From NCBI RefSeq assembly GCF_000021645.1, contig NC_011661.1, positions 1,148,723 to 1,212,722 on the forward strand: a stretch of DNA of 64,000 nucleotides, in the 5' to 3' direction. The stretch comes from Dictyoglomus turgidum DSM 6724. Lineage in GTDB: Bacteria; Dictyoglomota; Dictyoglomia; Dictyoglomales; Dictyoglomaceae. Made by a program: the position numbers and the translations under genes. The number at the start of each line of letters is the position of its first letter. Positions within the stretch are counted from its first letter, which is position 1. The notes below the pieces were generated by a model. The model was not told the origin of the DNA. It did not search any database and saw nothing but the letters and a program-made list of their open reading frames with translations. This document shows positions 38,049 through 55,254 of this stretch, one piece after another.

Positions 38049-39494
38049 ATGTATAAACCTGTTATTGGGCTTGAAGTACACGCTCAACTTTCTACAAAAA
38101 CCAAATTATTTTGCTCTTGTAGTACTGAACATGAGAACCTACCTCCAAACACTAATGTTTGTCCTATTTGTATGGGATTTCCTGGGACTTTACCAGTGGT
38201 GAATAAAAAGGCAGTGGAATATGCTATAAAAGCTGGAATTGCTTTAAATTGTGAAATATCTAATTATTCTAAATTTGACAGAAAGAATTATTTTTATCCT
38301 GATCTTCCTAAGGGGTATCAAATTTCTCAATATGATTTACCTCTGTGCAGAAATGGATATATAGACCTTTATGTGGATGGAGAGATAAAAAGAATAAGAA
38401 TAAAAAGAATTCATCTTGAAGAAGATGCAGGAAAGCTTCTTCATATAGGTTCTGGTGATAGACTTTCTGAATCTGATTATAGTCTTGTAGATTTCAATAG
38501 GGCAGGTATACCTTTAATTGAAATAGTTACAGAACCTGATATAAATTCTCCAAAAGAAGCAAGACTCTTCTTACAAGAGTTAAGATTAATACTAAGATAC
38601 CTTGGTATAAGTAGCGGTGACATGGAAAAAGGCTCACTACGGTGTGATGCTAATATATCTATTCAGACAGAAGAGGGTAAATTTGGAACAAGAACAGAGA
38701 TTAAAAATGTGAACTCTTTCTTCTCTCTTGAGAAGGCTTTGGAGTATGAAATAGAGAGACAAGTTGAAATATTAAAAAGGGGAGAAGAAGTTATTCAAGA
38801 GACAAGACATTGGGATGAAAAGAATCAAAAAACTATAAGTTTAAGAAGTAAAGAAGAAGCTGAGGATTATAGATATTTCCCAGAGCCTGATCTTCCCCCA
38901 TTAATTGTAACAGAAGAGATGAGGGAGAGATTAAAGAATGAAATTCCAGAACTCCCATCTAAAAGAAGAGAGCGATACTTAAATTTAGGACTTTCTCCCA
39001 TAGAAGTGGAGATTCTTGTCTCCGATAAAGATCTTTCAGAGTTTTTTGACAAATCTCTAAGGATCTATAACAACCCTAAAAATCTTCATAGTTGGTTATC
39101 GGTAGAGATATTAAGTTATTTAAATGAAAACAAAATTGAATTTAAAGATTTGGAAATTGAGCCTGAAAAATTTATAAGGCTTATAGAGATGGTGGATAAA
39201 AATGAAATAACAAGACCTGTTGCCAAAGAAGTTTTAAAAAAATATCTCTTCCAAAAAGAAGATCCTTTGGTTATAATAGAAAAAGAGGGGTTAAAGACTG
39301 TTTCCGATACTTCTTATTTACAAGACGTAATTAAGAGGGTTATATCAAATAATCCGAAGGCGGTGGAGGATTGGAAGAAGGGTAAAAAGCAAGTTATAAA
39401 CTTTTTGGTAGGGCAGGTGATGAGGGAAACTAAGGGCAGAGCGAGTTTGGATATAGTTAAAAATCTTCTTGAAGAAGAATTAAATAAATTATGA
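38049..39494 (+). CDS. gatB: Asp-tRNA(Asn)/Glu-tRNA(Gln) amidotransferase subunit B
   Basis: A 481-residue subunit that activates and transamidates the misacylated tRNA. The N-terminus PVIGLEVHAQLSTKTKLFC is diagnostic. Cysteines in CSCSTEHE...CPICMGFPG likely bind zinc. The kinase-like region contains GSLRCDANIS, and the C-terminal YqeY-like tail is present. It ends with a 4-base overlap into pilB. Confidence 0.97.
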   Translation: MYKPVIGLEVHAQLSTKTKLFCSCSTEHENLPPNTNVCPICMGFPGTLPVVNKKAVEYAIKAGIALNCEISNYSKFDRKNYFYPDLPKGYQISQYDLPLCRNGYIDLYVDGEIKRIRIKRIHLEEDAGKLLHIGSGDRLSESDYSLVDFNRAGIPLIEIVTEPDINSPKEARLFLQELRLILRYLGISSGDMEKGSLRCDANISIQTEEGKFGTRTEIKNVNSFFSLEKALEYEIERQVEILKRGEEVIQETRHWDEKNQKTISLRSKEEAEDYRYFPEPDLPPLIVTEEMRERLKNEIPELPSKRRERYLNLGLSPIEVEILVSDKDLSEFFDKSLRIYNNPKNLHSWLSVEILSYLNENKIEFKDLEIEPEKFIRLIEMVDKNEITRPVAKEVLKKYLFQKEDPLVIIEKEGLKTVSDTSYLQDVIKRVISNNPKAVEDWKKGKKQVINFLVGQVMRETKGRASLDIVKNLLEEELNKL

Positions 39495-41176
39495 AAGAAA
39501 AAAAGCCTTTAGGTGAATACTTATTAGAACAGGGGCTAATTACTAAGGAACAGTTAGAAAAAGCCCTTGAAGAGCAGAAAAAAACAGGTGCAAAACTTGG
39601 ACAAATTCTCATTGAAAGAGGATATGTAAAACCAGAGGATATAGGAAAAGTTTTAGAGAGGCAAAGTGAGATTCCATATATTTCTCTTACCGAAGTTCAG
39701 ATAGATGAAAAGCTTGCAGGAAGCTTTTCGGAAAATCTGCTGAGAAGATATAAATTTATCCCTATAAAAAGAGAAGCAGGAGTTTTGCATGTAGCAGTTG
39801 TTCCTCCTATTGACCCTGCAATCATAAACGAGATAAGACGAATTGTCAAATCTCCCATAAGAATTTTTATTACCACTGATAAGGAATTTAACCAAATAAT
39901 ATCAAGGCTTTTCCCCTTAGAAAAAACTACTCTTTCCGTGGTACAAGATTTTCAGAGAACTGCACCAGAACCCATGGTAGAGACTCTACCTGCTATAGGA
40001 GTAGAGGAAGCCCCTATTGTAAGGTTGGTTTCTTCCATAATAAATGAGGCAATAAATAGAAATGCCAGCGACATCCATTTAGACCCTCAAGAGAAAGAAA
40101 TGAAGGTAAGATATAGGATACATGGAATACTTTACGATATAATGGCTATTCCAAAGGAGATCCAAGATGCAGTAGTTACAAGAATAAAAGTAATATCGGG
40201 AATGGATATAGCGGAAAAAAGAAGACCCCAAGATGGGAGAGCTACTTATAGATATGAGAATAGGATATTTGATCTTCGTGTAGCATCCATAGGTACCACC
40301 TATGGTGAGATGGTGGTAATAAGACTTTTAGATAAGACAAAGGTGCTTATTGAACTTGATAGATTAGGGATGTCAGACTATGATCTGAAGATTTTTGAAA
40401 ACCTTATAAGAAGACCTTTTGGGATGATACTTGTTACAGGTCCTACAGGGAGTGGAAAAACTACTACTTTATATTCAGCCCTTAATGTATTAAACAAACC
40501 TGAGGTGAATATAATTACCCTTGAAGACCCTGTAGAATATGCTTTACCAGGAATAAACCAAATTCAAATACAACCCAAAATAGGCATTGATTTCGCAGTA
40601 GGACTTAGAAATATCTTGAGACTTGATCCAAACATAATTATGGTAGGTGAAATAAGGGATACTGAGACATTAAATACATCCATTGAAGCTGCGTTAACAG
40701 GACACCTGCTTTTGAGTACCTTTCATGCTAACGATTCTGTGAGTGCTATAGCAAGACTTGTTCAAATGGGAGTTGAACCTTTCCTTATAGCTTCATCCTT
40801 AATTGGTATTGTAGCTCAAAGGTTAGTAAGAACCATTTGTCTCTCTTGTAAGGAAGAATACTATCCTTCACCAGAAGAAGCAGAAGAGCTTGGCTTAACA
40901 AAAGAAGAGAGTAAAAACATAACCCTTGCTCGAGGGAAAGGGTGTCTCTTTTGCAATTACACAGGATATACAGGTAGAACAGGAGTTTTTGAGATTCTTA
41001 GAATTACAAAGAATATAAGAAACCTAATAACCTCAGGTGCATCTATTGATGAGATAAGAAGTGCAGCTCTTAATGAGGGAATGAAAACCCTATTCATAAA
41101 TGCAAGAGAAAAGGTCTTAAACCAAATTACTACTATTGATGAAGTAAGAAGAGTTATAGCCTGGGAGGAAGATTAA
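39491..41176 (+). CDS. pilB: Type IV pilus / type II secretion assembly ATPase (PilB/GspE)
   Basis: A 561-residue hexameric ATPase that drives polymerisation of pilin at the inner membrane. An N-terminal MshEN-like domain (LGEYLLEQGLITKEQLEKAL) is followed by the N2 domain. Walker A GPTGSGKTTT is near 317, with Asp/His boxes and Walker B IIMVGEIRD. A C-terminal zinc motif has Cys450/Cys453 and Cys485/Cys488. The zinc motif and N-terminal domain favour an extension ATPase over a PilT retraction ATPase. It lies at the end of the oppDF-gatCAB run. Confidence 0.95.
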   Translation: MKEKKPLGEYLLEQGLITKEQLEKALEEQKKTGAKLGQILIERGYVKPEDIGKVLERQSEIPYISLTEVQIDEKLAGSFSENLLRRYKFIPIKREAGVLHVAVVPPIDPAIINEIRRIVKSPIRIFITTDKEFNQIISRLFPLEKTTLSVVQDFQRTAPEPMVETLPAIGVEEAPIVRLVSSIINEAINRNASDIHLDPQEKEMKVRYRIHGILYDIMAIPKEIQDAVVTRIKVISGMDIAEKRRPQDGRATYRYENRIFDLRVASIGTTYGEMVVIRLLDKTKVLIELDRLGMSDYDLKIFENLIRRPFGMILVTGPTGSGKTTTLYSALNVLNKPEVNIITLEDPVEYALPGINQIQIQPKIGIDFAVGLRNILRLDPNIIMVGEIRDTETLNTSIEAALTGHLLLSTFHANDSVSAIARLVQMGVEPFLIASSLIGIVAQRLVRTICLSCKEEYYPSPEEAEELGLTKEESKNITLARGKGCLFCNYTGYTGRTGVFEILRITKNIRNLITSGASIDEIRSAALNEGMKTLFINAREKVLNQITTIDEVRRVIAWEED

Positions 41177-41177: not shown

Positions 41178-42380
41178 TTGCCTTCTTATAGATATGTAGC
41201 AAAAGATCTCCAAGGGAAAATATATAAAGGTATATTAGAAGCTTCTTCTGAAAGAGAAGTAAGAAAACTTTTAAAGGCAAGAAAATTATATGTAGTTTCT
41301 ATAAAAAAAGAAACAGGACTTTGGAAAACCCTCACTTATAAGAAAAAAGTTACCCTTCCTGAATTAGTACTTTTTACTTCTCAATTTGCCACTCTCCTTA
41401 GATCTGGGATTATCTTAACTGAGTGTTTATCAACCCTTGCATCTCAAACTGATAATGCCTACTTTAAAGATGTACTCCTTGATGTGAGAAAGAATGTAGA
41501 CGCTGGGTTGAGCCTTTCTGAAGCCCTATCTAAATATCCTGATGTATTCCCAAAAATATTTATAAGCCTTGTGAGAACAGGAGAGGTTACAGGAAGCCTT
41601 GATTTAATGTTGGATAGACTTTCCAAATATTTTGATTCCCAACATGAGCTTAGAGAGAAAATAAAATCTGCAACTACCTATCCCACCATTGTTATAATTG
41701 CAGCCATAGTGGTGGTAATCTTTATGTTGACTTTTGTGGTCCCAACCTTCCAAAGAATTTATGGAAGAACCAATGTTCCTCTTCCTTTTCCTACAAGAAT
41801 TACCATTTTTCTTGGCAATTTTGTAAAAAATAATATCTTGATTATATTAGTCCTTTTAGCTCTTCTTATTGCGGGAGCAAGACAAAGTTTAAGAAACAAA
41901 AAAATAAAAAGATGGTGGGATGAAAATAAGTTGAAAATCCCTAAGATAGGAAAATTATGGAGACAAGTGCTTCTTACAAGATTTTCTGGTACCTTTTATG
42001 TCCTTCTCACAGGAGGTATTTTGATAACCCAATCTTTGGAAATATTAGAGGATGTAATAGGAAATCTATATTTTTCAGAACATTTAAGAAAAATACTCTC
42101 GGGAGTCCTCGAGGGAAGAAACCTATCGGATATGATGGACGAAGAAGTTTTTACTCCTCTCTTAAAACAGATGGTAGTAATAGGGGAGAGAAGTGGTAGA
42201 CTTGATACCATGTTAGAAGAATATACAAAATTTGCAGAAAGAGAAATAGATATAGCTACAAAAAGACTTACCGCTATGATTGAGCCTGCCTTGACCATAT
42301 TCTTGGGGGTTGTGGTATTCTTTATTGCCATCTCCATGTATCTTCCCATGTTCAATATGGTAAGACTCTTTAGAAGATAA
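41178..42380 (+). CDS. pilC: Type IV pilus / type II secretion platform protein (PilC/GspF)
   Basis: A 400-residue inner-membrane platform protein with two GspF domains. The first begins LVLFTSQFATLLRSGI with RTGEVTGSLD, and the second LLTRFSGTFYVLLTGGI with GERSGRLD. Three membrane segments follow the usual layout (about 166-186, 215-232 and 370-390). The N-terminal SYRYVAKDLQGKIYKGILEA is characteristic. The start is TTG 41178, one base after the pilB stop. Confidence 0.95.
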   Translation: MPSYRYVAKDLQGKIYKGILEASSEREVRKLLKARKLYVVSIKKETGLWKTLTYKKKVTLPELVLFTSQFATLLRSGIILTECLSTLASQTDNAYFKDVLLDVRKNVDAGLSLSEALSKYPDVFPKIFISLVRTGEVTGSLDLMLDRLSKYFDSQHELREKIKSATTYPTIVIIAAIVVVIFMLTFVVPTFQRIYGRTNVPLPFPTRITIFLGNFVKNNILIILVLLALLIAGARQSLRNKKIKRWWDENKLKIPKIGKLWRQVLLTRFSGTFYVLLTGGILITQSLEILEDVIGNLYFSEHLRKILSGVLEGRNLSDMMDEEVFTPLLKQMVVIGERSGRLDTMLEEYTKFAEREIDIATKRLTAMIEPALTIFLGVVVFFIAISMYLPMFNMVRLFRR

Positions 42381-42456: not shown

Positions 42457-42846
42457 TTGAAGAACAGTAAAGGTTTCTCCCTTTTAGAACTCTTAGTAGT
42501 AATTGCAATTTTAGGAATTCTCGTAGCTATTGCTCTACCAAGATATTTTGATGCAGTAGCAGACGCAAAGAAAGCAGCTCAAAAATCTAACGTAGCAATT
42601 ATAAGAACAAGCCTTGAATATTATAGAAACAAAAATAATAAATATCCACAATTAACAGAATTCAATTCATTTATATCAAGCCAAACCTATTTTGCAGAAC
42701 CTCTTGTATGTCCATATAACAACAAAACTTATTCAGTAGTTGATCTTACAGCAACTTCTACATACTGGGGAACATCAGGTAATGAACATTATCTAGGATA
42801 TACAAGCACAGATAACTCATATACTTTAGTCTATACTGCTCCTTAA
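42457..42846 (+). CDS. Type IV major pilin / major pseudopilin
   Basis: A 129-residue prepilin with the class III leader MKNSKG/FSLLELLVVIAILGILVAIALP. Cleavage after Gly6 would leave N-terminal Phe and Glu5. After the helix (to about residue 55) a short globular domain ends in CPYNNKTYS...WGTSGNEHYLGYTSTDNSYTLVY. The size resembles GspG/TppA-type pseudopilins. A dedicated promoter, strong SD and immediate terminator mark it as the abundant subunit. The start is TTG 42457. Confidence 0.93.
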   Translation: MKNSKGFSLLELLVVIAILGILVAIALPRYFDAVADAKKAAQKSNVAIIRTSLEYYRNKNNKYPQLTEFNSFISSQTYFAEPLVCPYNNKTYSVVDLTATSTYWGTSGNEHYLGYTSTDNSYTLVYTAP

Positions 42847-42894: not shown

Positions 42895-43356
42895 ATGAAG
42901 ATTTTCTCAATCTTTTCCCTTAGAAGATACAAGAGAGGTATAATTTATGTTATACTTATCAGTGTTCTTCTTTTTTCGTTATCCATGCTTTTTCACATCT
43001 TCTATTGGCTAAGGGTAAACACTTTTATTTTATCCCATGAAGTTATTATAAATTCCAAATATGCTTTGGAATTATCTATAACTAAAGGAGAAAGAATAAT
43101 ATATTCCTTTGAATATTCACCTAAACTAAATACTATACTTTTTTATTGGATTTATGGAGAAAAAAGTAAAAAAGTATATCTTCAACCTCAGCTTTTACCT
43201 TCGGAAATAAAGGGGATAAGTCCTACAAATACTTATACTTTTTATTTTGACAATGGGAATTTATATCCTGAAGGAGAGATTCTTTTTTCTACGTATTTTT
43301 ATAAAAAAGGAGTAAAGTTTTATAAAAACGGAAGAGTTGTTTTTGTGGACAAATGA
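42895..43356 (+). CDS. Unrecognised membrane-anchored protein in the pilus locus
   Basis: A 153-residue protein I do not recognise. A basic N-terminus (RRYKRG) is followed by one hydrophobic segment (about residues 16-38) and then a Tyr/Phe/Lys-rich, probably all-beta, exported domain with FDNGNLYPEGEILFS and VKFYKNGRVVFVDK. The RG/IIYVIL junction resembles a prepilin cleavage site without Glu5, but this is weak. Only 12 bases separate it from the pilin terminator, so its promoter is unclear; read-through is possible. Position suggests a pilus-related role. Confidence 0.6.
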   Translation: MKIFSIFSLRRYKRGIIYVILISVLLFSLSMLFHIFYWLRVNTFILSHEVIINSKYALELSITKGERIIYSFEYSPKLNTILFYWIYGEKSKKVYLQPQLLPSEIKGISPTNTYTFYFDNGNLYPEGEILFSTYFYKKGVKFYKNGRVVFVDK

Positions 43357-43398: not shown

Positions 43399-43848
43399 AT
43401 GAAAAGGGGTTTTAGCTTCATTGAGGTTATTGTAATAGTTAGCATTCTTGCTATTCTGCTTGGAATAGCTCTTATATCCTTTAGATCTTCGCCTGACAAA
43501 AAACTGATTTTGGAGAACATAGTAAACCAATTTAAAGAAGATATTAGATTCGTAAGACAAAGGGCAATTATAAATAAAACTACTTGGACTCTATCTCTAA
43601 TACCTTCTCCCACCTATACCACTTATACTTCTTATACTTTTTTAGATGATAAAAATAAAACGGTCTTAAGAACTCTAACAAATCTTGATCAAGTAAAATC
43701 TACAGCAACTCTTTTTTCCTTTGACAAAGATGGAATTTTTACAGCGGATGCTTTGGAAACTTCTGCTACTTTAACTTTTCAAATTGAAACCTATTCTGCC
43801 ACAATAAGGATAAACCCTATGGGCTATATTGAGGTTACAGGATTATGA
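43399..43848 (+). CDS. Minor pseudopilin, FimT/GspH type
   Basis: About 149 residues. The leader MKRG/FSFIEVIVIVSILAILLGIALI gives Glu5 after cleavage. KLILENIVNQFKEDIRFVRQRAI, just after the helix, is the typical GspH/FimT feature. The C-terminus INPMGYIEVTG matches the family's last strands. Start 43399 gives a normal short leader; an in-frame TTG 43363 would add 12 residues. It begins an H-V-W-X-like run of minor pilins. Confidence 0.85.
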   Translation: MKRGFSFIEVIVIVSILAILLGIALISFRSSPDKKLILENIVNQFKEDIRFVRQRAIINKTTWTLSLIPSPTYTTYTSYTFLDDKNKTVLRTLTNLDQVKSTATLFSFDKDGIFTADALETSATLTFQIETYSATIRINPMGYIEVTGL

Positions 43849-44231
43849 GGAAAGGTTTAACCTTTTTAGAGGTTCTTATTGCAGTACTTCTTTTAGGTAT
43901 TATTATGTCGTCAGTAGGTGTTGCAATCTCTTACATATTAAGAGCTGATGAGTATGAAAACATGATGAATATCTGTTTATATCTTACGGAAAAGAAATTA
44001 GAAGAATATAGAAAAGCAGTTCTTGCCAATTGGAACATTTCTTTTACTTACTCAGGAAACTTTGCAAATATTGGATATACTGATTTTTTTTACAGTCTAA
44101 CGGTATTTAATACTACCTATTCTTTAAAACAAATATTTTTACAAGTATGGAAAGAGGAAAACAATAATAATAAATTAGATGATTTTGAGCCAGAGACTAT
44201 AATTATTACTTATATTTCAAGAAGGAATTAG
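43845..44231 (+). CDS. Minor pseudopilin, PilV/GspI type
   Basis: A 128-residue prepilin with leader MRKG/LTFLEVLIAVLLLGIIMSSV, so Glu5 is retained. The short globular part (YENMMNICLYLTEKKLEEY..) fits GspI/PilV. It overlaps the previous gene by 4 bases (ATGA) and is followed after one base by the lamin-tail pseudopilin. Confidence 0.84.
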   Translation: MRKGLTFLEVLIAVLLLGIIMSSVGVAISYILRADEYENMMNICLYLTEKKLEEYRKAVLANWNISFTYSGNFANIGYTDFFYSLTVFNTTYSLKQIFLQVWKEENNNNKLDDFEPETIIITYISRRN

Positions 44232-44232: not shown

Positions 44233-45825
44233 ATGAAAAAGGGATTAACTTTTATTGAGATTTTAATAACCATACTTATATTAGGGCTTATAGCCATCTT
44301 GCTGGTAAATATTTTTTTTAATACTAACGGGTTGTTCTCACAAAAGTTGCAAGAAAGAGAGTCAATAAGTAATCTTCAAATCATTATAGATAAACTTACA
44401 AGGGATATAAGACAAGCAAAAGAAGTTTTAGATATAGGTTCTTCTACTCAAACTCTGGGTTACGTAGTTTTATCTTTTCCCTCAGGAGATCAAAGTACTT
44501 ATTCTTATACTTATTACAACGGAAAGTATTATTTTACTGTTGATGGAGAAATTCTTGCAGGGCCTATAAAAGAAATAATATTTACAGGACTTGATGATAA
44601 CTTGACATATACCATGTTAACTTCCTCTATAAGAACCCTCTCCATAAGTGTTACTATGGACGATGGAAGGTATATGAGTACTATGGTGGCTTTGAGACCT
44701 CAAATAGTTCCTCAAATTACAGGAATATTCATCTCCGAGATCATGTATTATCCTGCTCTAAGAGATAGACAAGGAAATAATGTAAATGAGAACCTAATGG
44801 AGTTTATAGTAATTAACAATGCAACTAATTCTCCGCTAAATCTTTTTAATTGGAAGATTAATAACCATGCAATATCTAACACTAGAAGTGGTACTTATAC
44901 GGTACCAGCCTATGGTTGCGCTATTATAGGGGTTTCAGGCTCAAACTTATCCACTCATTATTTTGTTCCCAAGAATTATATTATCCTTGAAGTAGCTGAT
45001 GCATATTTAGGTCAGGGGAACAACCCCCTAAACAATAATAGTGATACATTAGTACTTCAAGATAGTAATAATGTAACTATAGATAAATTAACTTATAGTA
45101 GTAGCTGGGGAGGACAACCTCAAGGAAATAGATATTACTCTTTGGTAAGAAAAAGCATACAAAATCCATCTCAGGATCCATCTAATTGGATAAGTAGTAT
45201 CTTTAAGAATTACTCTGTTCAAAATATTGATGTATATTGCCTTGTTCCTCCCGTTTTAATAAACGAAATAATGTATTATCCAGCTCCTTATGATAAAAAT
45301 CGAAGATCTAGAAATGAAAGAGATATGGAATTTATAGAAATATACAACGCCTCAAATCAGACTATTAATATTCGAAACTGGCGAATAAACGGCAATACAT
45401 TATCTAACCTTGTTTCTGGAAACTGGGATCTTTCTCCAGGAAGTTATGCAATAATAGGAGGAAGTTGGTCTAGATTAAATAATTATTATAATTTACCGGC
45501 AGGTACTACTTACATAAAAGTGAATAACAGGGGGCTTGGTGCAGGTGGAATAGAGCTTTCTGATAGTGGAGCAACTATAACCTTGTCCGATGCTAATAAC
45601 TTGGTTGTAGATCAGGTAAGTTATTCCTATACTTGGGGAGGTTCTCCTTCAAGTTCTGGAAATTATAGGAATTATTATTCTCTTGAAAGGGAAAAGTGGG
45701 ATGCATCTCCTAATGATCCTTCTAATTGGGGAAGTAGTAGCAATTTAAATTATTCTGTTTTTATTAATCCTTTAACTTATTATGTATATTGCACTCCGGG
45801 AGGAAAGAATTCCAATTCACCATGA
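44233..45825 (+). CDS. PilW/GspJ-type pseudopilin with two lamin-tail domains
   Basis: A 530-residue chimera. The N-terminus MKKG/LTFIEILITILILGLIAIL is a prepilin leader with Glu5, followed by a GspJ-like head to about residue 160. Then come two homologous beta domains, at about 164-330 and 341-528. Each opens with EIMYYPA and continues MEFI.I.NA....NL.NW.IN, a small-residue turn, IIG, D.L.L.D.NN..ID, and W. The second ends in CTPGGKNSNSP, like the TPG-x-N end of bacterial lamin-tail domains (LTD). GspJ proteins are usually about 200 residues, so the C-terminal 370 are an added module. The function is unknown; surface display at the pseudopilus tip is likely. Confidence 0.85.
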   Translation: MKKGLTFIEILITILILGLIAILLVNIFFNTNGLFSQKLQERESISNLQIIIDKLTRDIRQAKEVLDIGSSTQTLGYVVLSFPSGDQSTYSYTYYNGKYYFTVDGEILAGPIKEIIFTGLDDNLTYTMLTSSIRTLSISVTMDDGRYMSTMVALRPQIVPQITGIFISEIMYYPALRDRQGNNVNENLMEFIVINNATNSPLNLFNWKINNHAISNTRSGTYTVPAYGCAIIGVSGSNLSTHYFVPKNYIILEVADAYLGQGNNPLNNNSDTLVLQDSNNVTIDKLTYSSSWGGQPQGNRYYSLVRKSIQNPSQDPSNWISSIFKNYSVQNIDVYCLVPPVLINEIMYYPAPYDKNRRSRNERDMEFIEIYNASNQTINIRNWRINGNTLSNLVSGNWDLSPGSYAIIGGSWSRLNNYYNLPAGTTYIKVNNRGLGAGGIELSDSGATITLSDANNLVVDQVSYSYTWGGSPSSSGNYRNYYSLEREKWDASPNDPSNWGSSSNLNYSVFINPLTYYVYCTPGGKNSNSP

Positions 45826-46256
45826 ATAAAGGCCAAATTCTTATTACAGTTTTATTAATTATTGCCATGTTGAGTCTTATCTTCTCAGGACTTATCATCT
45901 TCTGGGAAGGTAATATATCTAAGGTCTCCGCCCAGATTGCGGAAAAGCAAGCTCTCTATTTGGCAGAAGGTATGGCTGAGATGGCTATTTATAGTTTAAT
46001 CTGGTTTACTGGTATTCCTACCTATACCACTTTTGGTCCTATAACTTTTTCCTATACTAATTTTTACGGTATTGCAAAATCTGATTTTACTTATAGTCCT
46101 ACAGAGAGCTCCTTTATAATAACTTCTAATGCAATTGTTACTGTTATATATACTGGACAAACTTATACCTATTATAGGTCCTTAAGATTAGAAGGGATAA
46201 GAATTGGAACTTCGGTTCCTTATTCTCTTACTATAATAAACTGGGTGGAGGAGTAA
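45822..46256 (+). CDS. Tip-like minor prepilin, PilX/GspK type, no Glu5
   Basis: About 144 residues with leader MNKG/QILITVLLIIAMLSLIFSGLI. After cleavage the first residue is Gln and position 5 is Thr, so the conserved Glu5 is missing, as in GspK tip subunits. AEKQALYLAEGMAEMAIYSL matches the PilX helix (QA..LAE...E.A). Start 45822 gives an ATGA overlap with the lamin-tail gene; an in-frame start at 45789 gives a poor leader. It is short for a PilX. Confidence 0.78.
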   Translation: MNKGQILITVLLIIAMLSLIFSGLIIFWEGNISKVSAQIAEKQALYLAEGMAEMAIYSLIWFTGIPTYTTFGPITFSYTNFYGIAKSDFTYSPTESSFIITSNAIVTVIYTGQTYTYYRSLRLEGIRIGTSVPYSLTIINWVEE

Positions 46257-46257: not shown

Positions 46258-47646
46258 ATGATTGGAATTCAATGGCTTAATGGAAAATTAAGGATTGCGA
46301 GGATTTCTAAAAAAGGAAAAAAAGTAGAGCTGAGAGATTATATTGAAGTAGAAATTCCTACGGGAGATTTTTGGAATAGAGGATTAGAAGAAGTAAATTT
46401 AGTTAAAGAGAGAATTGAGAAGGTCTTTAGGGAAAACAAAATAAAAGACAAAGAAATTGTTATGCTTTTTGAAAGCAAAGATATATCTCTAAGGACCTCA
46501 GAATACCCTTATATGTCTATAAAAGAGCTTGAAATGGCAATTCTTGATGATCTTGAAGAGTATCAAGCCTTTGATGAAAATTATAGTCTGTTTACCTTTT
46601 CCATGCTTGATCAGGATAAAAGTAAGATAAGAACTACTGTAGCCACAATTCCTAAGGTAATAGTTAATACTTGGGAGAGCATCTTTAAGAATTTAGGATG
46701 TAAGCTTGTTTCTTTTGAGCCATCTTTTGTCTCAGGGACAAGGTATATTCTTTGGTCGGGTAAAAATAAGTATCCCAATGGAATTATATTTATAGGTAAT
46801 GAGACCACAGATTTAGTTTTTATAAAGGAAAAAAAGATTAATTCTATTATAAACTTAAGTGTGGGAATTAATGATTTCTATAACTTAGATGAACTATCCT
46901 TTGATACTACCTTTTTAAGCTGGCAAGAAGAGTTGATTACTTATTTAAACAGTGCTTTTTATGAACTTGGAGATAAAAATATAGTAATATTTGGAGAAGA
47001 TGAAAGATATTTTAAGGTTGCAGAGAATTTTGTAAAAAATCTATCCTTAGATTACAAAGTAGATATCATAGAAAATCTCAATATTTCCCTTTTGGGAACA
47101 GCATTGTATGACGTAAATATACTAAGGATCAATTTTATAAAAGAGAGGATTCTTATAGATAGAGAATTAATCATAAGATCCCTTATTTCCTTTCTTCTTG
47201 CTCTTTCTTTAATCTTTCCTATAAATTTCTATTTTGATTTAAAAATTAGAGATTTGGATAGGAAAATAAACTATCTACAAAGCGAAATTCTCAAATACAA
47301 TGATCAAATTTCTAATTTGAGGAAAGAAGTTGACAATCAAAATGCAATGGTACAAATACTAGAAAAATGGCTTGAAGAAAGATCTGCAGTATCTCTTCCT
47401 TTTATCTTTCTTTCCGACTTAAGATATTTTATCCCTAAAAATGTATGGCTTACAGCTCTTGATATTGGAATTGATAAAAAATTAATTATAGAGGGATACA
47501 GTCTTGATACCGAAGGAGTTGCGGATTTTTTGCTTGCATTGTCTCGTTATGAGAGGATTAAAAGTATTAAATTAGAAAGCGCTATTTTAGAAATTATGGA
47601 AAACAAGGAAGTACAAAAATTTAGGGTGGTGGGGTATATAAAATGA
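46258..47646 (+). CDS. PilM-PilN fusion (GspL-like platform protein)
   Basis: A 462-residue protein joining two normally separate parts. Residues 1-300 look like an actin-fold PilM (IGIQWLNGKLRIARI, EYPYMSIKELEMAI, VSFEPSF, GIIFIGNETTDLVFI). One membrane segment (about 305-325) and a coiled coil (328-365) follow, then a PilN-like periplasmic domain with FIPKNVWLTALDIG and the ferredoxin-like strand region. GspL of type II secretion has the same topology. PilO and PilP follow with overlap or near contact, so the M-N-O-P alignment complex is complete in three genes. Confidence 0.85.
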   Translation: MIGIQWLNGKLRIARISKKGKKVELRDYIEVEIPTGDFWNRGLEEVNLVKERIEKVFRENKIKDKEIVMLFESKDISLRTSEYPYMSIKELEMAILDDLEEYQAFDENYSLFTFSMLDQDKSKIRTTVATIPKVIVNTWESIFKNLGCKLVSFEPSFVSGTRYILWSGKNKYPNGIIFIGNETTDLVFIKEKKINSIINLSVGINDFYNLDELSFDTTFLSWQEELITYLNSAFYELGDKNIVIFGEDERYFKVAENFVKNLSLDYKVDIIENLNISLLGTALYDVNILRINFIKERILIDRELIIRSLISFLLALSLIFPINFYFDLKIRDLDRKINYLQSEILKYNDQISNLRKEVDNQNAMVQILEKWLEERSAVSLPFIFLSDLRYFIPKNVWLTALDIGIDKKLIIEGYSLDTEGVADFLLALSRYERIKSIKLESAILEIMENKEVQKFRVVGYIK

Positions 47647-48185
47647 GAAACAAAATACATCTATACATTTTTACCATCGTTTTACTTCTTGGCTTGATTT
47701 TATTTGTAATGCCAAAATATTCTCAGGTAAGTAAGAAAGAAAGGGAGTATAACACAAAAAGATTAGAGTTAGAAAATGCCATAGAAAGCATAGCCACATT
47801 AAGGGATACCTTAAATAAAATAGAAGAAAGAAGAAGGGTTATTTTTGCGGAGAGAAATCTTCTTTTTTTAAGAGAAGAGGAAATTCCCATATTTTTTAAA
47901 GATCTGAGCATAGTGATAAAAAGAAACAAAATAACGAGCTTTGAGATAAAACCTTCTGATTTTGAGGAGATACAAGATCTTCCTGAAAATTTCCCTTTGA
48001 AGCTCAAAAAATTGCCTATTAACTTAAAGCTCATAGGAAATTACAATCAATTTATAGACTTCTTTAGGGATCTTTATGACGAGAGTTATCCTATAAGCTT
48101 TAATCAAGTTCAACTCATGAGTAGCGAGAACCTGTTAACTCTTAATGTAATTTTTGACGTATATGTCCTTGAAGGAGGGGAATAA
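47643..48185 (+). CDS. PilO-like alignment complex protein
   Basis: A 180-residue protein with one N-terminal membrane segment (about 6-24), a coiled coil (about 28-75) and a small C-terminal alpha/beta domain (LPINLKLIGNYNQFIDFFRDLYDESYPI). This topology and position after PilN identify PilO by context; sequence motifs are weak in this family. It overlaps the PilM-N gene by 4 bases. Confidence 0.8.
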   Translation: MRNKIHLYIFTIVLLLGLILFVMPKYSQVSKKEREYNTKRLELENAIESIATLRDTLNKIEERRRVIFAERNLLFLREEEIPIFFKDLSIVIKRNKITSFEIKPSDFEEIQDLPENFPLKLKKLPINLKLIGNYNQFIDFFRDLYDESYPISFNQVQLMSSENLLTLNVIFDVYVLEGGE

Positions 48186-48186: not shown

Positions 48187-48726
48187 ATGAAGAAGATAGA
48201 CTATTTATTAAGTACTTTTCTAATTGCCTCCTTAGGATTAAATACTTATCTTGTAGTTAATGTTGACAGACTCTTAAGGGAGGATTTTGAAGAGATAGTA
48301 TTAGCAAAAAAAATATCCTTTGTTAAACAAGATGCAGAAAAAATAGAAGATATTAAGGCAATAAAAACTATGGATGGCATTAGAAAAAATTATAGGTTAT
48401 CTTTAGGAAGAGATGATCCTTTTAAACCACTAATAAAAGTGGAAAAAGAAAAGATTAGTATCAAGAATTCTGTATCCATTGATAAGACTGTTCCAAAGGT
48501 TGTATCTGAACTTGAAAAGCCACCCTTTATCTTAAGAGGAATACTAAAGGGAGAGTATAGCGAAGTAGCAATTTTAGAAAGAGTTGGAAGGGAAGAGAGT
48601 TTTGTGGTTGAAAAAGGTAAAGAAATAGATGGATATCATATAATTAAGCTTGATATTAACAATAACACTATTACTCTACGCAAAAATAATAAAGACTACA
48701 TCCTGAAATTAGTAGGAGATAGGTAA
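48187..48726 (+). CDS. PilP/GspC-like protein
   Basis: About 179 residues with one membrane segment (6-24), a linker (about 25-115), and a C-terminal HR-like beta domain. LRGILKGEYSEVAILERVG...SFVVEKGKEIDGYHIIKLDINNNTITLRK matches the PilP/GspC homology region. Start 48187 has SD GGAGGGG. In other systems this domain contacts the secretin, so a secretin gene is expected elsewhere in the genome. Its last 18 bases overlap the 3' end of the convergent gene on the other strand. Confidence 0.78.
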   Translation: MKKIDYLLSTFLIASLGLNTYLVVNVDRLLREDFEEIVLAKKISFVKQDAEKIEDIKAIKTMDGIRKNYRLSLGRDDPFKPLIKVEKEKISIKNSVSIDKTVPKVVSELEKPPFILRGILKGEYSEVAILERVGREESFVVEKGKEIDGYHIIKLDINNNTITLRKNNKDYILKLVGDR

Positions 48727-49491
48727 TTCCTCTAAGAATACCGTTCCATTGAAGGTAACGTCTCTTGTTCTTACTATATTTTGATACCTTCTTTGAATGC
48801 TTAAAGAAACTTGCACCTGTTGAATATTTGTATTTCTTGAAGGAATAGTATCGGTATAAGTAGTTAAAGAGTATGTATTGTTTGACGGATCCAGAGTACT
48901 ATAATCAATTACATAATAGCTTACAGTAAAGCCGTTGGGTACTATGTAATCCGCAATTATTTTTGGAAATTCTCCAGAAGTAAAGGTTATATTTGTAGGA
49001 TAATTAGTGATTTTTCCTATCTTTAGAGTCTTAGATGTGCCTGTAAAAGCGACAGTAATGGTATAAGTAGCGTATTGAGGGCTCCAATTTATAAATTTTC
49101 TATAATATAAAAGCATTCTTGCATTTGGAAGAGCACTATCTGTAGGAACTCTTGGTCTTGTTAAGTAGACATTTAAAAAGTAACCTCCTGAGGAGGCAGG
49201 GGTGATTGTAAGAAGTTTATCATAACCAATTCTTTCATTTATATTAAGATTAAAATTTGAACTATCGGAAAGCCTTATATTTACATTTGGAGGATATATA
49301 AAAATACTCTTTAGCACAGAATCAAGGATGTTGGTTTTTGCTGAATTAAGATACTCGTATATTTCTCTATCAAGTTTTTGAGAAATAAAATCCCTCTGTA
49401 CTGACATCCATATGGCGAAGGTTAATGCAAGTATAATAAATAGTATGAAGAGAGAAATGATTAATTCAACTAAGCTCATTCCTTTTTTCAT
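48709..49491 (-). CDS. Minor pseudopilin, PilW/GspJ type
   Basis: A 260-residue prepilin with leader MKKG/MSLVELIISLFILFIILALTFAIWMSV, so Glu5 is kept and the +1 residue is Met. A long helix (to about 60) precedes a beta-rich, Tyr/Thr-rich head. Size and position after a V-like gene suggest a PilW/GspJ role. It is the last gene of the - strand block and ends inside the convergent pilP-like gene. Confidence 0.78.
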   Translation of the reverse strand: MKKGMSLVELIISLFILFIILALTFAIWMSVQRDFISQKLDREIYEYLNSAKTNILDSVLKSIFIYPPNVNIRLSDSSNFNLNINERIGYDKLLTITPASSGGYFLNVYLTRPRVPTDSALPNARMLLYYRKFINWSPQYATYTITVAFTGTSKTLKIGKITNYPTNITFTSGEFPKIIADYIVPNGFTVSYYVIDYSTLDPSNNTYSLTTYTDTIPSRNTNIQQVQVSLSIQRRYQNIVRTRDVTFNGTVFLEELPISY

Positions 49492-50045
49492 GGTCTTGTA
49501 ACTACCCCCGCAAGTTCTGCCAAAGGATTTTCATACCTTTTTGGCGGTGCACCACTTCCAGGCTTATGTATACTGGTATTAATTTCTCCATTTGGCTTCG
49601 CATAGTACACCCTCACCGTAATTCTCTTCATTATGGCAATAGAAGATCCCGGACTTTGATAATCTTTGACAAGAAATTGTACTACATATTTAGGTGCTCC
49701 ATTTACCTTAGGAATGTTATAAAAATCCGTATATAGTCTGTCATTTTCAGGTGGATCTGCAGGAATTGCAGGTCTTATGGTAGGTATTGCAGGGATTGCT
49801 CTTGTACTATTTACTTCATTTTCTACTAATGCATCAAAGTTTGCTTCGCTACTTCCCGCCCAAATTTTTGTTGTCTCAATAATATTTTTGGCAATATCCT
49901 GAGCTTCAGCTCTATCTCTTGCTCTTTTGTTTAAGGCATAGCTCCAAATAGTAGCCCCCGTTAAACTAAGTACTAATATCATCAAGATAATGGTGAATAC
50001 CACTACTCCCACTAAAGATTGTCCTTTTTCCTTATCTATTCTCAC
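49488..50045 (-). CDS. Minor prepilin without Glu5, PilV-like position
   Basis: About 185 residues. The leader MRIDKEKG/QSLVGVVVFTIILMILVLSLTG places Gln at +1 and Gly at +5, so Glu5 is absent. The following helix (RARDRAEAQDIAKNIIETTK) resembles PilV. The middle has a run of Ala/Ile/Pro (AIPAIPTIRPAIPADPP), perhaps an extended linker. The start is GTG 50045, set by SD GGGGGGTGATG; TTG 50060 lies inside that SD. It overlaps the next gene by 4 bases. Confidence 0.72.
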   Translation of the reverse strand: MRIDKEKGQSLVGVVVFTIILMILVLSLTGATIWSYALNKRARDRAEAQDIAKNIIETTKIWAGSSEANFDALVENEVNSTRAIPAIPTIRPAIPADPPENDRLYTDFYNIPKVNGAPKYVVQFLVKDYQSPGSSIAIMKRITVRVYYAKPNGEINTSIHKPGSGAPPKRYENPLAELAGVVTRP

Positions 50046-50064
50046 ACCATCACCCCCCAAGATT

Positions 50065-50313
50065 TTATTCTACAAACTCCACAAAGGGAGGATAAGGACC
50101 CTTTTCAGGTGTGTTATTAATATTTAAAGTGTTGGTTGACTTAACTGTGCTTTCAATCTCCAAATTTATATCCTTTTCCACTCTTTCCTTCATCTCCTTT
50201 GGTGATGTATATTCATTGAAATTCCTAATTGAAAATATTTTAAAGATCAATATGACTATGAAAATAGCTATACTTATAATTAACAAAACTTTGTCAATAT
50301 TTTTTATTTCCAT
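50065..50313 (-). CDS. Small single-pass membrane protein in the pilin block
   Basis: An 82-residue protein I do not recognise. A basic start (MEIKNIDK) is followed by a strongly hydrophobic segment (about 9-27) and a polar, charged tail ending in PEKGPYPPFVEFVE. There is no prepilin cleavage site. SD GGAGGG precedes ATG 50313, which overlaps the end of the previous gene by 10 bases. Coupling to the pilin genes suggests an assembly or anchoring role, but nothing in the sequence defines it. Confidence 0.6.
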   Translation of the reverse strand: MEIKNIDKVLLIISIAIFIVILIFKIFSIRNFNEYTSPKEMKERVEKDINLEIESTVKSTNTLNINNTPEKGPYPPFVEFVE

Positions 50314-52010
50314 ATTTCCCTCCAAGAGTCAATGAAAATCCATCTTTGGGTTTGAGGATTGCCTTCTTGTATAGTTCTTCCTGTGGTTGGGAAATAGGGT
50401 GGAGCATAGCCTGATCTCATTCTATAATCGTACCAAAAATCTCTACCATAACCACTTGTTGGAATTGGGTTTCCATTTCTGTCTGTGGAAAAGGTACCAA
50501 AAGCTCCATAGTTTTTAGAGATAATACCTCCTAAAAGATGTACATCCCCAGCTGGGGGTCTCGTGCTATAATTTGCTACCTGTACCACACCGTTTGGAGC
50601 CATAAGTACTGCATGAATATTTGGATCTCTCAATACATTTCCACTACTATCTTTTGGATCAATAATTATATTGCCAGTTTCTGCAAGAAGTCCGAGCACA
50701 TTTACAGCATCTGGATTGTTTCTTGGATCATCCTCATAGGTCAAATGATTTGTAATGGTAATGTTACTTTTAGCAACCACTGTAATCCTTTGATCTTTCT
50801 GTACCATACCTTTTATACTTGTGACATTTCCATTAACATAAATAACTCCATTAGGGGCTTTATTTATCTCTATAATTTGATTTCCTATTTTTACATAGGT
50901 TTTGTTATTTTTGACATCAACTGTAAATACATAAGTACTCGATCCCTGGGTTATAGTATAAACTGATCTACCCAAGGAATCCTTTCCAAATTCTATACTG
51001 GTATCACCCTGTATATATATTCCACCGCCATTGGCTATAGTTATGGTATATATTCCGTTAGGAGGGGCAGTGTTTCCAGGAGGCAGTCCAAGATAGTTTC
51101 TTATTACCGAATAAGTGGGACTGTACGTAGGAAAATTATCATTTGGAAAGTAGGAAAGGGCAGCATAAAGCTGAGTATAAGCTACAGTAGGAAGATTGAT
51201 TGCAGGAGCTCCCCTTGTAAATCCCTTCGCAAAATAAGGGATATCTCTTGGAGGATTGCTATCTGCTGCAAGTTGTCTTGGATTTCCACCATTATAGAAG
51301 TATGCGGTTGTAGCTACCGATGAAACTTCATCAAAAAATTGTGGAGTATAAGCAAAAGCAAATTGTCCATTAGTATGAACAGGTCCATAGAACTTTGTTC
51401 TATCAGTAAACCAGACCCTTGAACCATCGCTCATTAAGTGTCTATCGGTAAACAATGCAAACCTAGCAAAATTTTCTTTTCTTAGCACTCCTTCGATTTT
51501 TCCCGTGACGGTAACTTGAAGGGTTATGGTAGGATTAAAATTTACTTTTTGTCCGAGACAGGTTATAGTATATACATAAGTATAGCTAACTTCGTCGGTT
51601 GTTCCACCTCTTGTTATTGCAGTGTAGTTTGCTAAACTAAAAGAGTAATCTAAAATGGAGTAAACAGTATTAGGATCTACCTGGGAAGTATTTGTATAAA
51701 TATAATTGATAGTATTAATAAAATTGGTATTATTTTTTGATAAAAGGGAGGATAAAAAATTCTCATCTATGTCTGTTAATTTTCTTCTTGTTAATTGGTC
51801 TTTTAAGTAGTATCTTGCAGTGGTGAGAACGGTTTTAATTCCTACTTGAGTAGCGTATAGTACTTGATCTCTTGCTTGACTTCTACGGGTAAAGAAGGAC
51901 TGTTCAATGGGGAAATTTACCACAAGAGCAATCAAAGCAGTTATAAAAATGGCAAAGGTTATAGCTGTTATCAGGCTAATATCACCCTTTTCCCCTTTTT
52001 TGATTCTCAT
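50304..52010 (-). CDS. Large prepilin-like protein with DUF4900-type region
   Basis: A 568-residue protein. The N-terminus MRIKKGEKG/DISLITAITFAIFITALIALVV is prepilin-like but has Asp at +1 and no Glu5. A helix with SQARDQVLYATQVGIKTVLTTAR, PilX-like, follows. Around residues 199-220 WFTDRTKFYGPVHTNGQFAF resembles the DUF4900 pattern (GPVHTNG), which I recall from Deinococcus/Thermus-type envelope proteins. Later parts are beta-rich, with GIYIQGDTSIEFG, GVIYVNGNVTSIKG and a Tyr/Pro-rich end. It is probably a tip-type subunit with a large exported head. The DUF assignment is from memory. Confidence 0.7.
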   Translation of the reverse strand: MRIKKGEKGDISLITAITFAIFITALIALVVNFPIEQSFFTRRSQARDQVLYATQVGIKTVLTTARYYLKDQLTRRKLTDIDENFLSSLLSKNNTNFINTINYIYTNTSQVDPNTVYSILDYSFSLANYTAITRGGTTDEVSYTYVYTITCLGQKVNFNPTITLQVTVTGKIEGVLRKENFARFALFTDRHLMSDGSRVWFTDRTKFYGPVHTNGQFAFAYTPQFFDEVSSVATTAYFYNGGNPRQLAADSNPPRDIPYFAKGFTRGAPAINLPTVAYTQLYAALSYFPNDNFPTYSPTYSVIRNYLGLPPGNTAPPNGIYTITIANGGGIYIQGDTSIEFGKDSLGRSVYTITQGSSTYVFTVDVKNNKTYVKIGNQIIEINKAPNGVIYVNGNVTSIKGMVQKDQRITVVAKSNITITNHLTYEDDPRNNPDAVNVLGLLAETGNIIIDPKDSSGNVLRDPNIHAVLMAPNGVVQVANYSTRPPAGDVHLLGGIISKNYGAFGTFSTDRNGNPIPTSGYGRDFWYDYRMRSGYAPPYFPTTGRTIQEGNPQTQRWIFIDSWREIWK

Positions 52011-52053
52011 TTGTTAACACTCCTTATTAAAAATTAAGATTTTTCTAAAATAA

Positions 52054-52083
52054 ATTATACACCTAAAAACGTAAAAATAAACA
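52054..52083 (-). promoter_or_regulatory. Possible internal promoter of the - strand pilin block
   Basis: On the - strand a perfect TATAAT occupies 52059-52054, with a weak -35 TGTTTA at 52083-52078 (18-base spacing). It lies in the only sizeable gap (136 bases) of the block and would drive the 568-residue protein and the three genes after it. SD AAGGAGTG precedes that gene. Confidence 0.5.
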
Positions 52084-52146
52084 CAGTTATTTCCAAACTA
52101 ATAGGGTTTGAAGTTTAGATTTGGTTTTTTAAGTTTTAAAATATAT

Positions 52147-52722
52147 CTATAGAGATATTTTACCTGTTGCCATTATTTTAATTGAATAGGATAAATTTAT
52201 ACTCATACTCTTGCCTGTTATCACCACCCCATTATTGTCTATATTGCTATCTGAATACAAAGTTCTACCACTTAATAAATTAACAATTTTAGCTTGTCCT
52301 CTAATTTCATTAGCATTTCCTCCAGCTTTAAACACAACCCCTAAATAATTTTTGCCGTTAATACTCACAGTAGGAGAAATAAATTGTAACTTTATATTCT
52401 TAGGCAGTTTTACAATTTTAAAATAACGAGAATTAGCATCTCCTGGTACAAAATGTATATTGTAAATTTGAGGATTTTGTAACATTCCATATTGCATGAA
52501 CTCAATATAATACTCATCCTCTCCTATGTAGGCAATAAGATCTTGCTGCTGAACAATTGCCTTTTCTCTTGCAATCCTTAAATCTTGAGCAAGTTGCCAC
52601 ATTATATTTTCCAAAGTCTTTCTCTCATAGAAATTTCTTAGAGTTGGAATACTCGCTATTGCAATAATGGCTAAAACTGCAATGACAATATATAACTCTA
52701 TTAGACTGAACCCTTTTCTCAT
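52147..52722 (-). CDS. Minor pseudopilin, FimT/GspH type
   Basis: A 191-residue prepilin with leader MRKG/FSLIELYIVIAVLAIIAIASIPTL (Glu5 present). NIMWQLAQDLRIAREKAIVQQQ is the typical GspH/FimT stretch. The C-terminal part contains LGVVFKAGGNANEIRGQAKI and SLSYSIKIMATGKISL, close to the GspH end. It follows the 639-residue NG-repeat protein by 10 bases. Confidence 0.83.
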   Translation of the reverse strand: MRKGFSLIELYIVIAVLAIIAIASIPTLRNFYERKTLENIMWQLAQDLRIAREKAIVQQQDLIAYIGEDEYYIEFMQYGMLQNPQIYNIHFVPGDANSRYFKIVKLPKNIKLQFISPTVSINGKNYLGVVFKAGGNANEIRGQAKIVNLLSGRTLYSDSNIDNNGVVITGKSMSINLSYSIKIMATGKISL

Positions 52723-52732
52723 AGCTCGGTCC

Positions 52733-54652
52733 TTACATCTTTATATTTATAATAGGATTTAGAGAGCTTACATAATTCTCAGAAACAGTCTTAGTTATAA
52801 TCTCTGCCCATCTGTTTCTTAATACTTTTCCTGAAGAGGAAAAGGCTTCAAAAGAAACATTAACATACTTCAATGGCTCTCCCATCAATGGTGGTGGAGA
52901 AACAGTATTATTAGCGAGTCTGTTATCATAAACAATATTTTGGCTCCCGTTGAAGGTAACTCCTTGAGTAGTTCCATAACCACCTCCAATAACAGCTCCA
53001 AATATGGTAGAGCTTCCATTAAAGGTAATGTTACTGTATGGAGCATACATTAAACCGTGATATTCTACGCTTCCATTAACTACTATTCCTCCATTTGTTC
53101 CTTGCCCTAAGGAAACAAGAGCTGAAATACTTTTATCGTCAAGATATTTAATTCCTTGTGCTCCATTGAATTGAATCTTCTTGGTTGATATTATGGTTCC
53201 TGAGCCTTTTATCTTAACTATTCCGTTAAAAATTACATCTCCATTTACCCAAATAACTCCAGGAGAATTAAACTCAAGGGTACAATCACCATTAAAAGTG
53301 AGATCTCCATTAACATATAGAGCTACAGGAGGATTAGATGAGGTGGAGTTTATTTTTACATTTCCAGTAGCATTTAAGGTCAAGCTACCGTCTATGTAAT
53401 AAGGAACGTTTGTTCCATCATATTTTCTTCCATTTACTACAAGGGTATAGTTACTATAAGTAGATAGTGATCCTTTTTGGATTGCACCGTAAGAACTTGC
53501 TATCTGTTTTATTTGCTCCTCTAAGGGAAGGGGAATTTCTGGTAATGATTCCTTTTGGTTGTAAATTATTTGTCCTTGAATATATGGTGCTCCAGTTATA
53601 GTGATAGGATTTACCTCTTGAGGCTGTGAAGTTATCAGATTCCCATATATTCTTGGAGCTCCATTTAAAACTATTTTTCCATCTACATATAAATCTCCAT
53701 TAGTATATGTAGATGTATAGGTTCCATTTGGAGATATGTTGCCTGAGTATATATCTAAGGCTCCATTTATGGTTAAGCCATTTCCAGACCAAACTGCATG
53801 AGTAAAAGCAGGAGGTGTTATAGTGTTAGTATAATCCTTAATAATCTGGGCTAAGATGCTTCCAATTTTGGCAGAAGAATAGATAGATCTAATTCTATTT
53901 GGACTACTTAAATAGTAGGCTGTAATTCTTATCTGAAACTCGCCATTACTTCCATTATCATCATTGTATTGCACATTTGTTCTTATTACTATCCATCGAG
54001 AATTTATTTTAAAATTATAATCAAGGTCAGAAAGCCTATAAACGTTGCTTGAATAAAACTCCTGCAGCAATGTACTCCCATTTATTTCAGATAAGTTAGG
54101 AACTAAATAATATATCCCATTACTATTTAATCCAACTACTTTATACAGCCTTTTATCAGATAAATCGTATAAATATGTTCCATAATTGTCTAAAATATCC
54201 CATAATGATCCAGGAGTTTTATTTGCTTGAATATAATTACTATAACTTGCTCCTATATCCTGATAGGGATTTAAGCTGTTGTTTAAATTAACTACTTCGC
54301 CACCATTAATTTTTGAGAGCAAAAAGCTCAAAACGTAATATGCTGATGCTTTTTTAATCATGTTTTCATCAGTTAATTTTGTAGATATGATACTCAGGTT
54401 TTTATAAATATCTGAATTAACATTACGGGCAGATAGAGATAAAAATTTAGGGAAATCACTTATAGTAAGGAGTGTGTTATCAAGCATTAAATCACAAGCG
54501 ACAAGGAGATTATCTGACATTTTTTCTTCACTAAAAATGGTATCCTTGGTTAGGGCTGTATTAAGAAGAGTTATTGAGATTCCAAGAAATATTAAACCCA
54601 AAACCAATACTAACACAATAGTAGAGTATCCTTTTTCTGTAATTTTAATCAT
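52733..54652 (-). CDS. Tip-like prepilin with NG-rich beta-solenoid-like region
   Basis: A 639-residue protein. The N-terminus MIKITEKG/YSTIVLVLVLGLIFLGISITLL is prepilin-like, with Val at +5 and no Glu5. From about residue 280 to 575 there are many short repeats ending in N-G, such as LTINGALDIYSG, LYVDGKIVLNGA, LYVNGDLTFNGD, VIWVNGDVIFNGI, ITFNGSSTIFG and VTFNGSQNIVY. This periodicity suggests a stacked beta structure like polymer-forming (bactofilin/CcmA-like) or DUF7305-type domains; the fold is inferred. It probably forms a large surface head on a pseudopilus tip. Confidence 0.75.
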   Translation of the reverse strand: MIKITEKGYSTIVLVLVLGLIFLGISITLLNTALTKDTIFSEEKMSDNLLVACDLMLDNTLLTISDFPKFLSLSARNVNSDIYKNLSIISTKLTDENMIKKASAYYVLSFLLSKINGGEVVNLNNSLNPYQDIGASYSNYIQANKTPGSLWDILDNYGTYLYDLSDKRLYKVVGLNSNGIYYLVPNLSEINGSTLLQEFYSSNVYRLSDLDYNFKINSRWIVIRTNVQYNDDNGSNGEFQIRITAYYLSSPNRIRSIYSSAKIGSILAQIIKDYTNTITPPAFTHAVWSGNGLTINGALDIYSGNISPNGTYTSTYTNGDLYVDGKIVLNGAPRIYGNLITSQPQEVNPITITGAPYIQGQIIYNQKESLPEIPLPLEEQIKQIASSYGAIQKGSLSTYSNYTLVVNGRKYDGTNVPYYIDGSLTLNATGNVKINSTSSNPPVALYVNGDLTFNGDCTLEFNSPGVIWVNGDVIFNGIVKIKGSGTIISTKKIQFNGAQGIKYLDDKSISALVSLGQGTNGGIVVNGSVEYHGLMYAPYSNITFNGSSTIFGAVIGGGYGTTQGVTFNGSQNIVYDNRLANNTVSPPPLMGEPLKYVNVSFEAFSSSGKVLRNRWAEIITKTVSENYVSSLNPIINIKM

Positions 54653-54683
54653 ATTAAACTCCCCCCAGTCAGAAAAGATTAAT

Positions 54684-55253
54684 TTACTGTCTTAAAGAGA
54701 TCAAAAAAATCCTGTACATATTTATTGTATTTCCGTAGGGAAGAAGAGACTCTGCGAAGATCTCCACCTCCACAACTTTTGGATCCCAATAAGGTCTTCT
54801 TATGATTATGTTTTTGAACACCTTATTAGTTAAAGGTTGACTGCTGATGACACTTTGATATGTAAATCCACCATCGGTAGATAGATTTAGACTATAAAGC
54901 ACCTCTCTCATTCCTTTAGAGTTAGGAGCTCCAAAAGAGTAGATTATTTTTCTGATCTGATTTTTATCATCTCTACTATTGAATTCAATTAATTTATTTT
55001 GACTAAAATCAGCGAAGTTATCAGAATATGTAGAATATGCCGGAAAGGTTATAGTATAAGCCTGTCTTAACTCATTGGACAATTGTTGAATAAAAATATT
55101 TATATCATCAAGAATTTCATCATATACTTGTTGAGATCGAGATATTTGAAAAGAGTAGAGAAGAGCACCAAAAATAAGGGAGAAGATAATCATAAATATG
55201 ATAATAACTATCAATGTTTCTATAAGAGTAAATCCCTTTTCTCCTTTCCTCAT
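54684..55253 (-). CDS. Minor pseudopilin, PilW/GspJ type
   Basis: A 189-residue prepilin with leader MRKGEKG/FTLIETLIVIIIFMIIFSLIFGALL and Glu5. IFIQQLSNELRQAYTITFP after the helix is the typical GspJ/PilW segment, and the length is normal for GspJ. It lies one base after the previous prepilin gene on the - strand. Confidence 0.83.
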   Translation of the reverse strand: MRKGEKGFTLIETLIVIIIFMIIFSLIFGALLYSFQISRSQQVYDEILDDINIFIQQLSNELRQAYTITFPAYSTYSDNFADFSQNKLIEFNSRDDKNQIRKIIYSFGAPNSKGMREVLYSLNLSTDGGFTYQSVISSQPLTNKVFKNIIIRRPYWDPKVVEVEIFAESLLPYGNTINMYRIFLISLRQ

Positions 55254-55254
55254 G

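Follow-up and report, generated by a model that had tools for sequence, protein, structure and literature searches.

The window analysed here, a stretch of 64,000 nucleotides from the genome of the hot-spring bacterium Dictyoglomus turgidum DSM 6724 (one contig of 1,855,560 bases), carries a pilus operon with the gene order E-F-G-x-H-I-J-K-MN-O-P (Table 1). Its neighbours from H to PilP overlap by 4 bases or sit 1 base apart, and the 4-base overlap of the K-slot frame with J takes in the J stop codon. The J slot is occupied by ORF 44233-45825(+), a single unbroken frame of 530 residues with an ATG start and zero internal stops, opposite a strand riddled with stops. Its product, hereafter named the J-LTD protein, is a complete J/PilW-like minor pilin fused to two lamin-tail domains (LTDs), a domain best known from the nuclear lamins.

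Table 1. Genes of the pilus operon and domains of the J-LTD protein, with positions in the window
Feature	Position	Strand	Evidence and remarks
Assembly ATPase, PilB/GspE type, with MshEN domain	39491..41176	+	TIGR02538 580.9 bits (cut-off 675.65); T2SSE 423.7; MshEN 69.4
Platform protein PilC/GspF	41178..42380	+	TIGR02120 339.6 bits (cut-off 424, not reached)
Major pilin, GspG-like	42457..42846	+	N_methyl 38.9 bits; gspG 50.8 vs cut-off 88.85
153-aa protein with one TM segment (x)	42895..43356	+	No NCBIfam match; conserved in the operon, present in G001, G002 and G004
Minor pilin, GspH-like	43399..43848	+	GspH 23.5 bits vs 21
Minor pilin, I slot, Glu5 present	43845..44231	+	TIGR02532 19.9 vs 16.3
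J-LTD protein, pilin module, residues 1 to ~157	44233..44703	+	MKKG leader, Glu5, long N-terminal helix, small beta domain; ends ...STMVALRPQ
J-LTD protein, lamin-tail domain 1 (LTD1), residues 162-339	44716..45249	+	Second Pfam LTD stretch; genome scan 44.8 bits; Foldseek lamin LTDs
J-LTD protein, lamin-tail domain 2 (LTD2), residues 340-530, C-terminus CTPGGKNSNSP	45250..45822	+	Best Pfam LTD stretch 340-464; genome scan 54.6 bits
Short minor pilin, K slot, 144 aa, without Glu5 (MNKG/QILIT)	45822..46256	+	NF037980 GspK 22 bits, weak
PilM-like and PilN fusion, one 462-aa ORF	46258..47646	+	PilN 31.1 bits vs 22.8; PilM_2 17; pilM 29.1
PilO-like	47643..48185	+	PilO 20.0 vs 22
PilP-like, by position and gene order	48187..48726	+	No family match

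The J-LTD protein begins with MKKG/LTFIEILITILILGLIAILLVNIFF, read by eye as a class III prepilin signal with Glu5, although this leader falls slightly below the curated cut-offs (Pfam N_methyl 14.4 vs 21.2; TIGR02532 15.7 vs 16.3). The N_methyl cut-off is passed by a paralogue in the congener G001 (L048, 22.6 vs 21.2). Free-standing J/PilW-type pilins from other genomes could be aligned across all of the first 150-160 residues; several of them stop at ...LRN/LRQ, where the J-LTD protein reads ...VALRPQIVPQITG followed directly by IFISEIMYY. Because the free-standing proteins end at this junction, the pilin module is complete, with the LTDs, about 370 extra residues, appended to it. The protein displays two features of modular pilins (PMC8179133), a class III prepilin signal and a whole pilin module that continues, in the same chain, into a domain foreign to pilins. 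It resembles GspJ/PilW minor pilins in the position of its gene between I and K, its Glu5 and its pilin module, and differs from them in the added residues and in the absence of the GspJ model TIGR01711 from its family matches up to E 0.1.

The Pfam LTD profile (PF00932) matched the J-LTD protein in two stretches with 87.4 bits (E=1.1e-24, cut-off 34.3), and both domains individually exceeded the cut-off in a whole-genome scan. The two domains share 43% identity across 169 residues, and the boundaries first proposed for them from sequence, 164-330 and 341-528, proved essentially correct. A phmmer search of the whole protein against PDB returned nothing beyond a weak match to the pilin helix, and PADLOC gave no match. 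When a profile built from LTD rows was compared with PDB, lamin-B1 tails were the best four of five matches, at non-significant values (E 0.23-0.42).

Structure prediction by AlphaFold2 was carried out with a shallow alignment of the window and related-locus sequences. The full-length model reached a mean pLDDT of 62, with 10-residue blocks of the LTDs ranging from about 47 to 87, many of them at 70-87. Its pilin part consists of a helix (7-69) and strands (75-118), with a good helix start, a poor junction and low confidence in the module except the helix. The model of LTD2 alone was better (pLDDT 78, pTM 0.83). For each model, 14 of the 15 first Foldseek matches in PDB were the tails of lamins A/C, B1 and B2. 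The probabilities ran from 0.94 to 1.00 with the full model and from 0.99 to 1.00 with LTD2 alone, which matched lamin A/C at 1.00, and the E values from about 1e-3 to 8e-2. Since all but one of these first matches were lamin tails, the immunoglobulin-like fold that the original prediction called for was recovered, and both LTDs are predicted with moderate model confidence to adopt it.

The same fusion is found in orthologues from G002 (76% identity) and G001 (52%, cut near the C-terminus by the contig end). In the sister genus, both LTDs are present in G005, where the contig ends before the pilin start, and one LTD in G004. The operon gene order is retained in G002 and G004 and, up to J, where the contig stops, in G001. 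The dN/dS values between the window and G002 were 0.14 for the whole gene, 0.12 for the pilin part, 0.09 for LTD1 and 0.18 for LTD2, rough figures because synonymous sites are near saturation; the gene, including both LTDs, is under purifying selection. The orthologues and this constraint exclude a chance fusion or a missed frame break, so the prepilin-LTD fusion first noticed from the sequence is intact. In G003 and G006, no more than about 1.5 kb separates the GspF gene from a contig end, past which the downstream genes run off, and the draft assemblies G001, G003, G005 and G006 (also L050) break in or near this operon; genes absent there are therefore no evidence of loss.

D. turgidum also possesses an orphan paralogue of 572 aa (L014:8403-10121) with the same architecture and two LTDs, located at 346 kb outside any pilus operon, and its counterparts are present in G001 and G002. 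It is a possible alternative tip subunit. In a tree of the LTDs, drawn open, the LTD1 rows stood apart from the LTD2 rows with support of 82/88, a split that was blurred when two more distant rows were added, and the single LTD of G004 was an LTD1, sister to that of G005. Judging from this grouping, the duplication of the domain probably predates the genus split, and G004 probably lost LTD2.

The operon appears more akin to a type IV pilus system than to the pseudopilus of type II secretion. The type IVa slots (PilB, PilC, PilM-P and minor pilins) are filled by gene order and by weak-to-strong matches, the ATPase and PilC lying below the equivalog cut-offs and PilP having no match. No recognisable GspD, GspC or GspL is encoded in the operon, and PilM-N- and PilO-like genes stand in their stead. 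Because of these PilM-N-, PilO- and PilP-like partners, the J-LTD protein is better described as a minor pilin of a type IV pilus-like system than as a T2SS pseudopilin. The GspJ/PilW pseudopilin of the original prediction accordingly survives as a minor pilin in J position, but its GspJ label lacks a model match and the pseudopilus assignment gives way to a type IV pilus-like one. In known tip complexes, K caps H-I-J, and J has Glu5 while K does not (PMC9934059); the same pattern of Glu5 is seen here.

A secretin, a prepilin peptidase and a retraction motor are not encoded in the operon; the genome carries them elsewhere, as single or remote genes. The sole secretin (1424 aa, with an AMIN domain) and the sole prepilin peptidase both lie some 130-140 kb away, in a second pilus locus whose J protein has no LTD, and three more ATPases of the PilB/GspE family are found elsewhere. 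The secretin (L053:13491-17765) repeats an N-domain block about three times in near-identical form, which makes for an unusually long periplasmic stack.

The breadth of the architecture was surveyed in a sample of 386 genomes from 326 genera. The LTD itself is common, being found in 172 of the 386 genomes at E<=1e-8, whereas, among the matches listed for a whole-protein profile, only those in Dictyoglomaceae spanned pilin and LTD, and the others covered one part. A set of 142 LTD frames was then drawn from this sample and from other loci, a redundant and non-random collection with some frames cut at locus edges. Within it, a prepilin signal outside Dictyoglomaceae was seen only in a tandem pair from genome G321, of an unrelated lineage; a third, related protein occurs in the same genome. 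The pair (L163:1402-2160 and 2179-2898, minus strand; LTD 61-63 bits, N_methyl 34-35 bits) sits between ABC-transporter genes and outside any pilus operon, and the related protein (L189) is a third GspG-type pilin with one C-terminal LTD (36 bits). Like the J-LTD protein, the L163 proteins combine a prepilin signal and an LTD within one chain; unlike it, the G321 pilins have a GspG major-pilin module and a single LTD. The pilin parts of the pair are GspG-like, with 36-38% identity to the G pilin of the window, and their LTDs fall on a long, deep separate branch. On these grounds an independent graft in G321 is the simplest reading, and the LTDs of its pilins were apparently acquired apart from the Dictyoglomus fusion. 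The idea that LTD-bearing pilins are unique to Dictyoglomus was rejected because the GspG-type pilins of G321 carry the domain.

Modular pilins form a recognised class, for which InterPro has 264 architectures (PMC8179133), and the LTD is an added entry among the modules carried by type IV filaments. As such a module it is new to the literature searched, which contained nothing joining a lamin tail to a prepilin or pilin; the LTD is unnamed in the main text of PMC8179133, and the 264-architecture dataset of that study might list the combination. The large modular pilins among the pilin-part matches (L088-L092) have fn3, SdrD_B, Big and other domains or no known domain, and none has an LTD. In Streptococcus sanguinis, the tip-predicted pilins PilB and PilC carry extra modules that bind ligands, a vWA domain (PMC8179133) and a lectin (PMC9934059), respectively. 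The J-LTD protein has the same layout of a class III signal, a pilin module and then a C-terminal domain that is not pilus-specific, with a predicted tip location, but its module is a tandem LTD on a J-slot pilin from another bacterial lineage. Its extended LTD (NEIMY...EWIE...SLER...NW...TPGxxN) is shared with proteins of Bacteroidetes, Ignavibacteria, Planctomycetes and Verrucomicrobia (L005-L011). Those read in this analysis are large (frames of 495-2202 aa), several have tandem LTDs, and, in contrast to the J-LTD protein, none has a prepilin signal.

On balance, the J-LTD protein is somewhat more probably than otherwise a modular minor pilin of a type IV pilus-like filament, whose tip-displayed LTD pair mediates attachment outside the cell. 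For this role, the prepilin peptidase would cut the pilin module, which would join the H-I-J-K set, start the filament and remain at its tip. The LTD pair, grafted directly after the complete pilin module, would then project as a binding ('effector') module and attach to an extracellular polymer or protein, possibly a plant polysaccharide or the surface of a neighbouring cell. A location near the filament tip, as already proposed from the sequence, is likely by analogy with the modular pilins (PMC8179133, PMC9934059) and from the J slot, and the same analogy suggests an outside target for the LTDs. Rich in Asn/Ser/Thr/Tyr and aromatics, the LTDs have a composition that fits polymer or protein binding without proving it. 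Several points weigh against tip binding: the missing GspJ match, the lack of a secretin, peptidase or retraction motor in the operon, the low confidence of the pilin model, and the case of Vibrio cholerae Xds, whose LTD is dispensable for activity and localisation (PMC6746945). No direct test of a bacterial LTD other than the Xds study was found, and the literature searched contains no demonstrated ligand or function for any bacterial LTD.

The LTD pair could instead serve as a structural cap that replaces the bulky domain of GspK and stabilises or plugs the tip, or, in a secretion-like piston, docks the substrate to be secreted. A long J beside a K-slot protein without a bulky domain would suit such a cap, as would the GspG- and GspH-like subunits of the operon and the remoteness of the sole secretin. 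However, the second full J-LTD gene stands alone without a K partner, the G004 orthologue makes do with one LTD and the J of the second pilus locus with none, and we regard this reading as conceivable but doubtful. Envelope docking, in which the LTDs anchor a short pseudopilus or the tip of the filament to the wall or outer layer of the producing cell, draws on a suggestion that LTDs are membrane tethers of bacterial proteins (Mans et al. 2004, as cited in PMC6746945). This tether idea failed in the Xds test, where deletion of the LTD left localisation unchanged (PMC6746945), and a tip module would have to act prior to its exit from the envelope; among the functions weighed here we give docking very little credence.

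The original prediction had named DNA, glycans and the cell envelope as ligands. A DNA-capture receptor, with the LTDs binding extracellular DNA for uptake through ComEC, is quite unlikely. ComEC is encoded in the genome, but it is also present in 10 of 14 control genomes and its presence therefore says little. The overall charge of each LTD is close to neutral (pI 5.0-7.6, K+R about equal to D+E), whereas known DNA-binding pilins employ electropositive patches (PMC12153270), so DNA is weakly disfavoured as a ligand. The charge of the domains thus lends no support to the proposed DNA binding; glycans, proteins and the envelope are the other candidate ligands.

Tip attachment would make the J-LTD protein a candidate attachment factor for thermophiles living on plant matter. 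The tapirins offer a habitat parallel only (PMC7142884), since no link of tapirin to type IV pili was found in the literature searched. The presence of the LTD on a tip-slot pilus subunit, and on a pilin of another lineage, is a position suited to a binding module. A bolder proposal, speculative and on the whole improbable, is that the LTD is a recurrent adhesion module of pilus tips, grafted at least twice on different pilins, and that Dictyoglomus swaps the operon J and the orphan J' as tips of one filament, thereby changing what is held. The J-LTD proteins offer small thermophile proteins for testing bacterial LTD function.

Additional features were observed around the operon and its relatives. 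The MshEN-type domain of the assembly ATPase (also matched by NF053729 with 76.8 bits) suggests that cyclic di-GMP controls the filament. Downstream in the window, a second, convergent cluster (48709-56058, minus strand) encodes pilins along with large proteins of pilus-like type; a DUF4900 protein (50304-52010) and a DUF7305 protein (52733-54652) are among its products. In the G004 operon, a toxin-antitoxin-like HEPN/nucleotidyltransferase pair (L049:14210-14915; HEPN 112.9 bits, NTP_transf_2 49.9 bits) lies between PilC/GspF and the major pilin.
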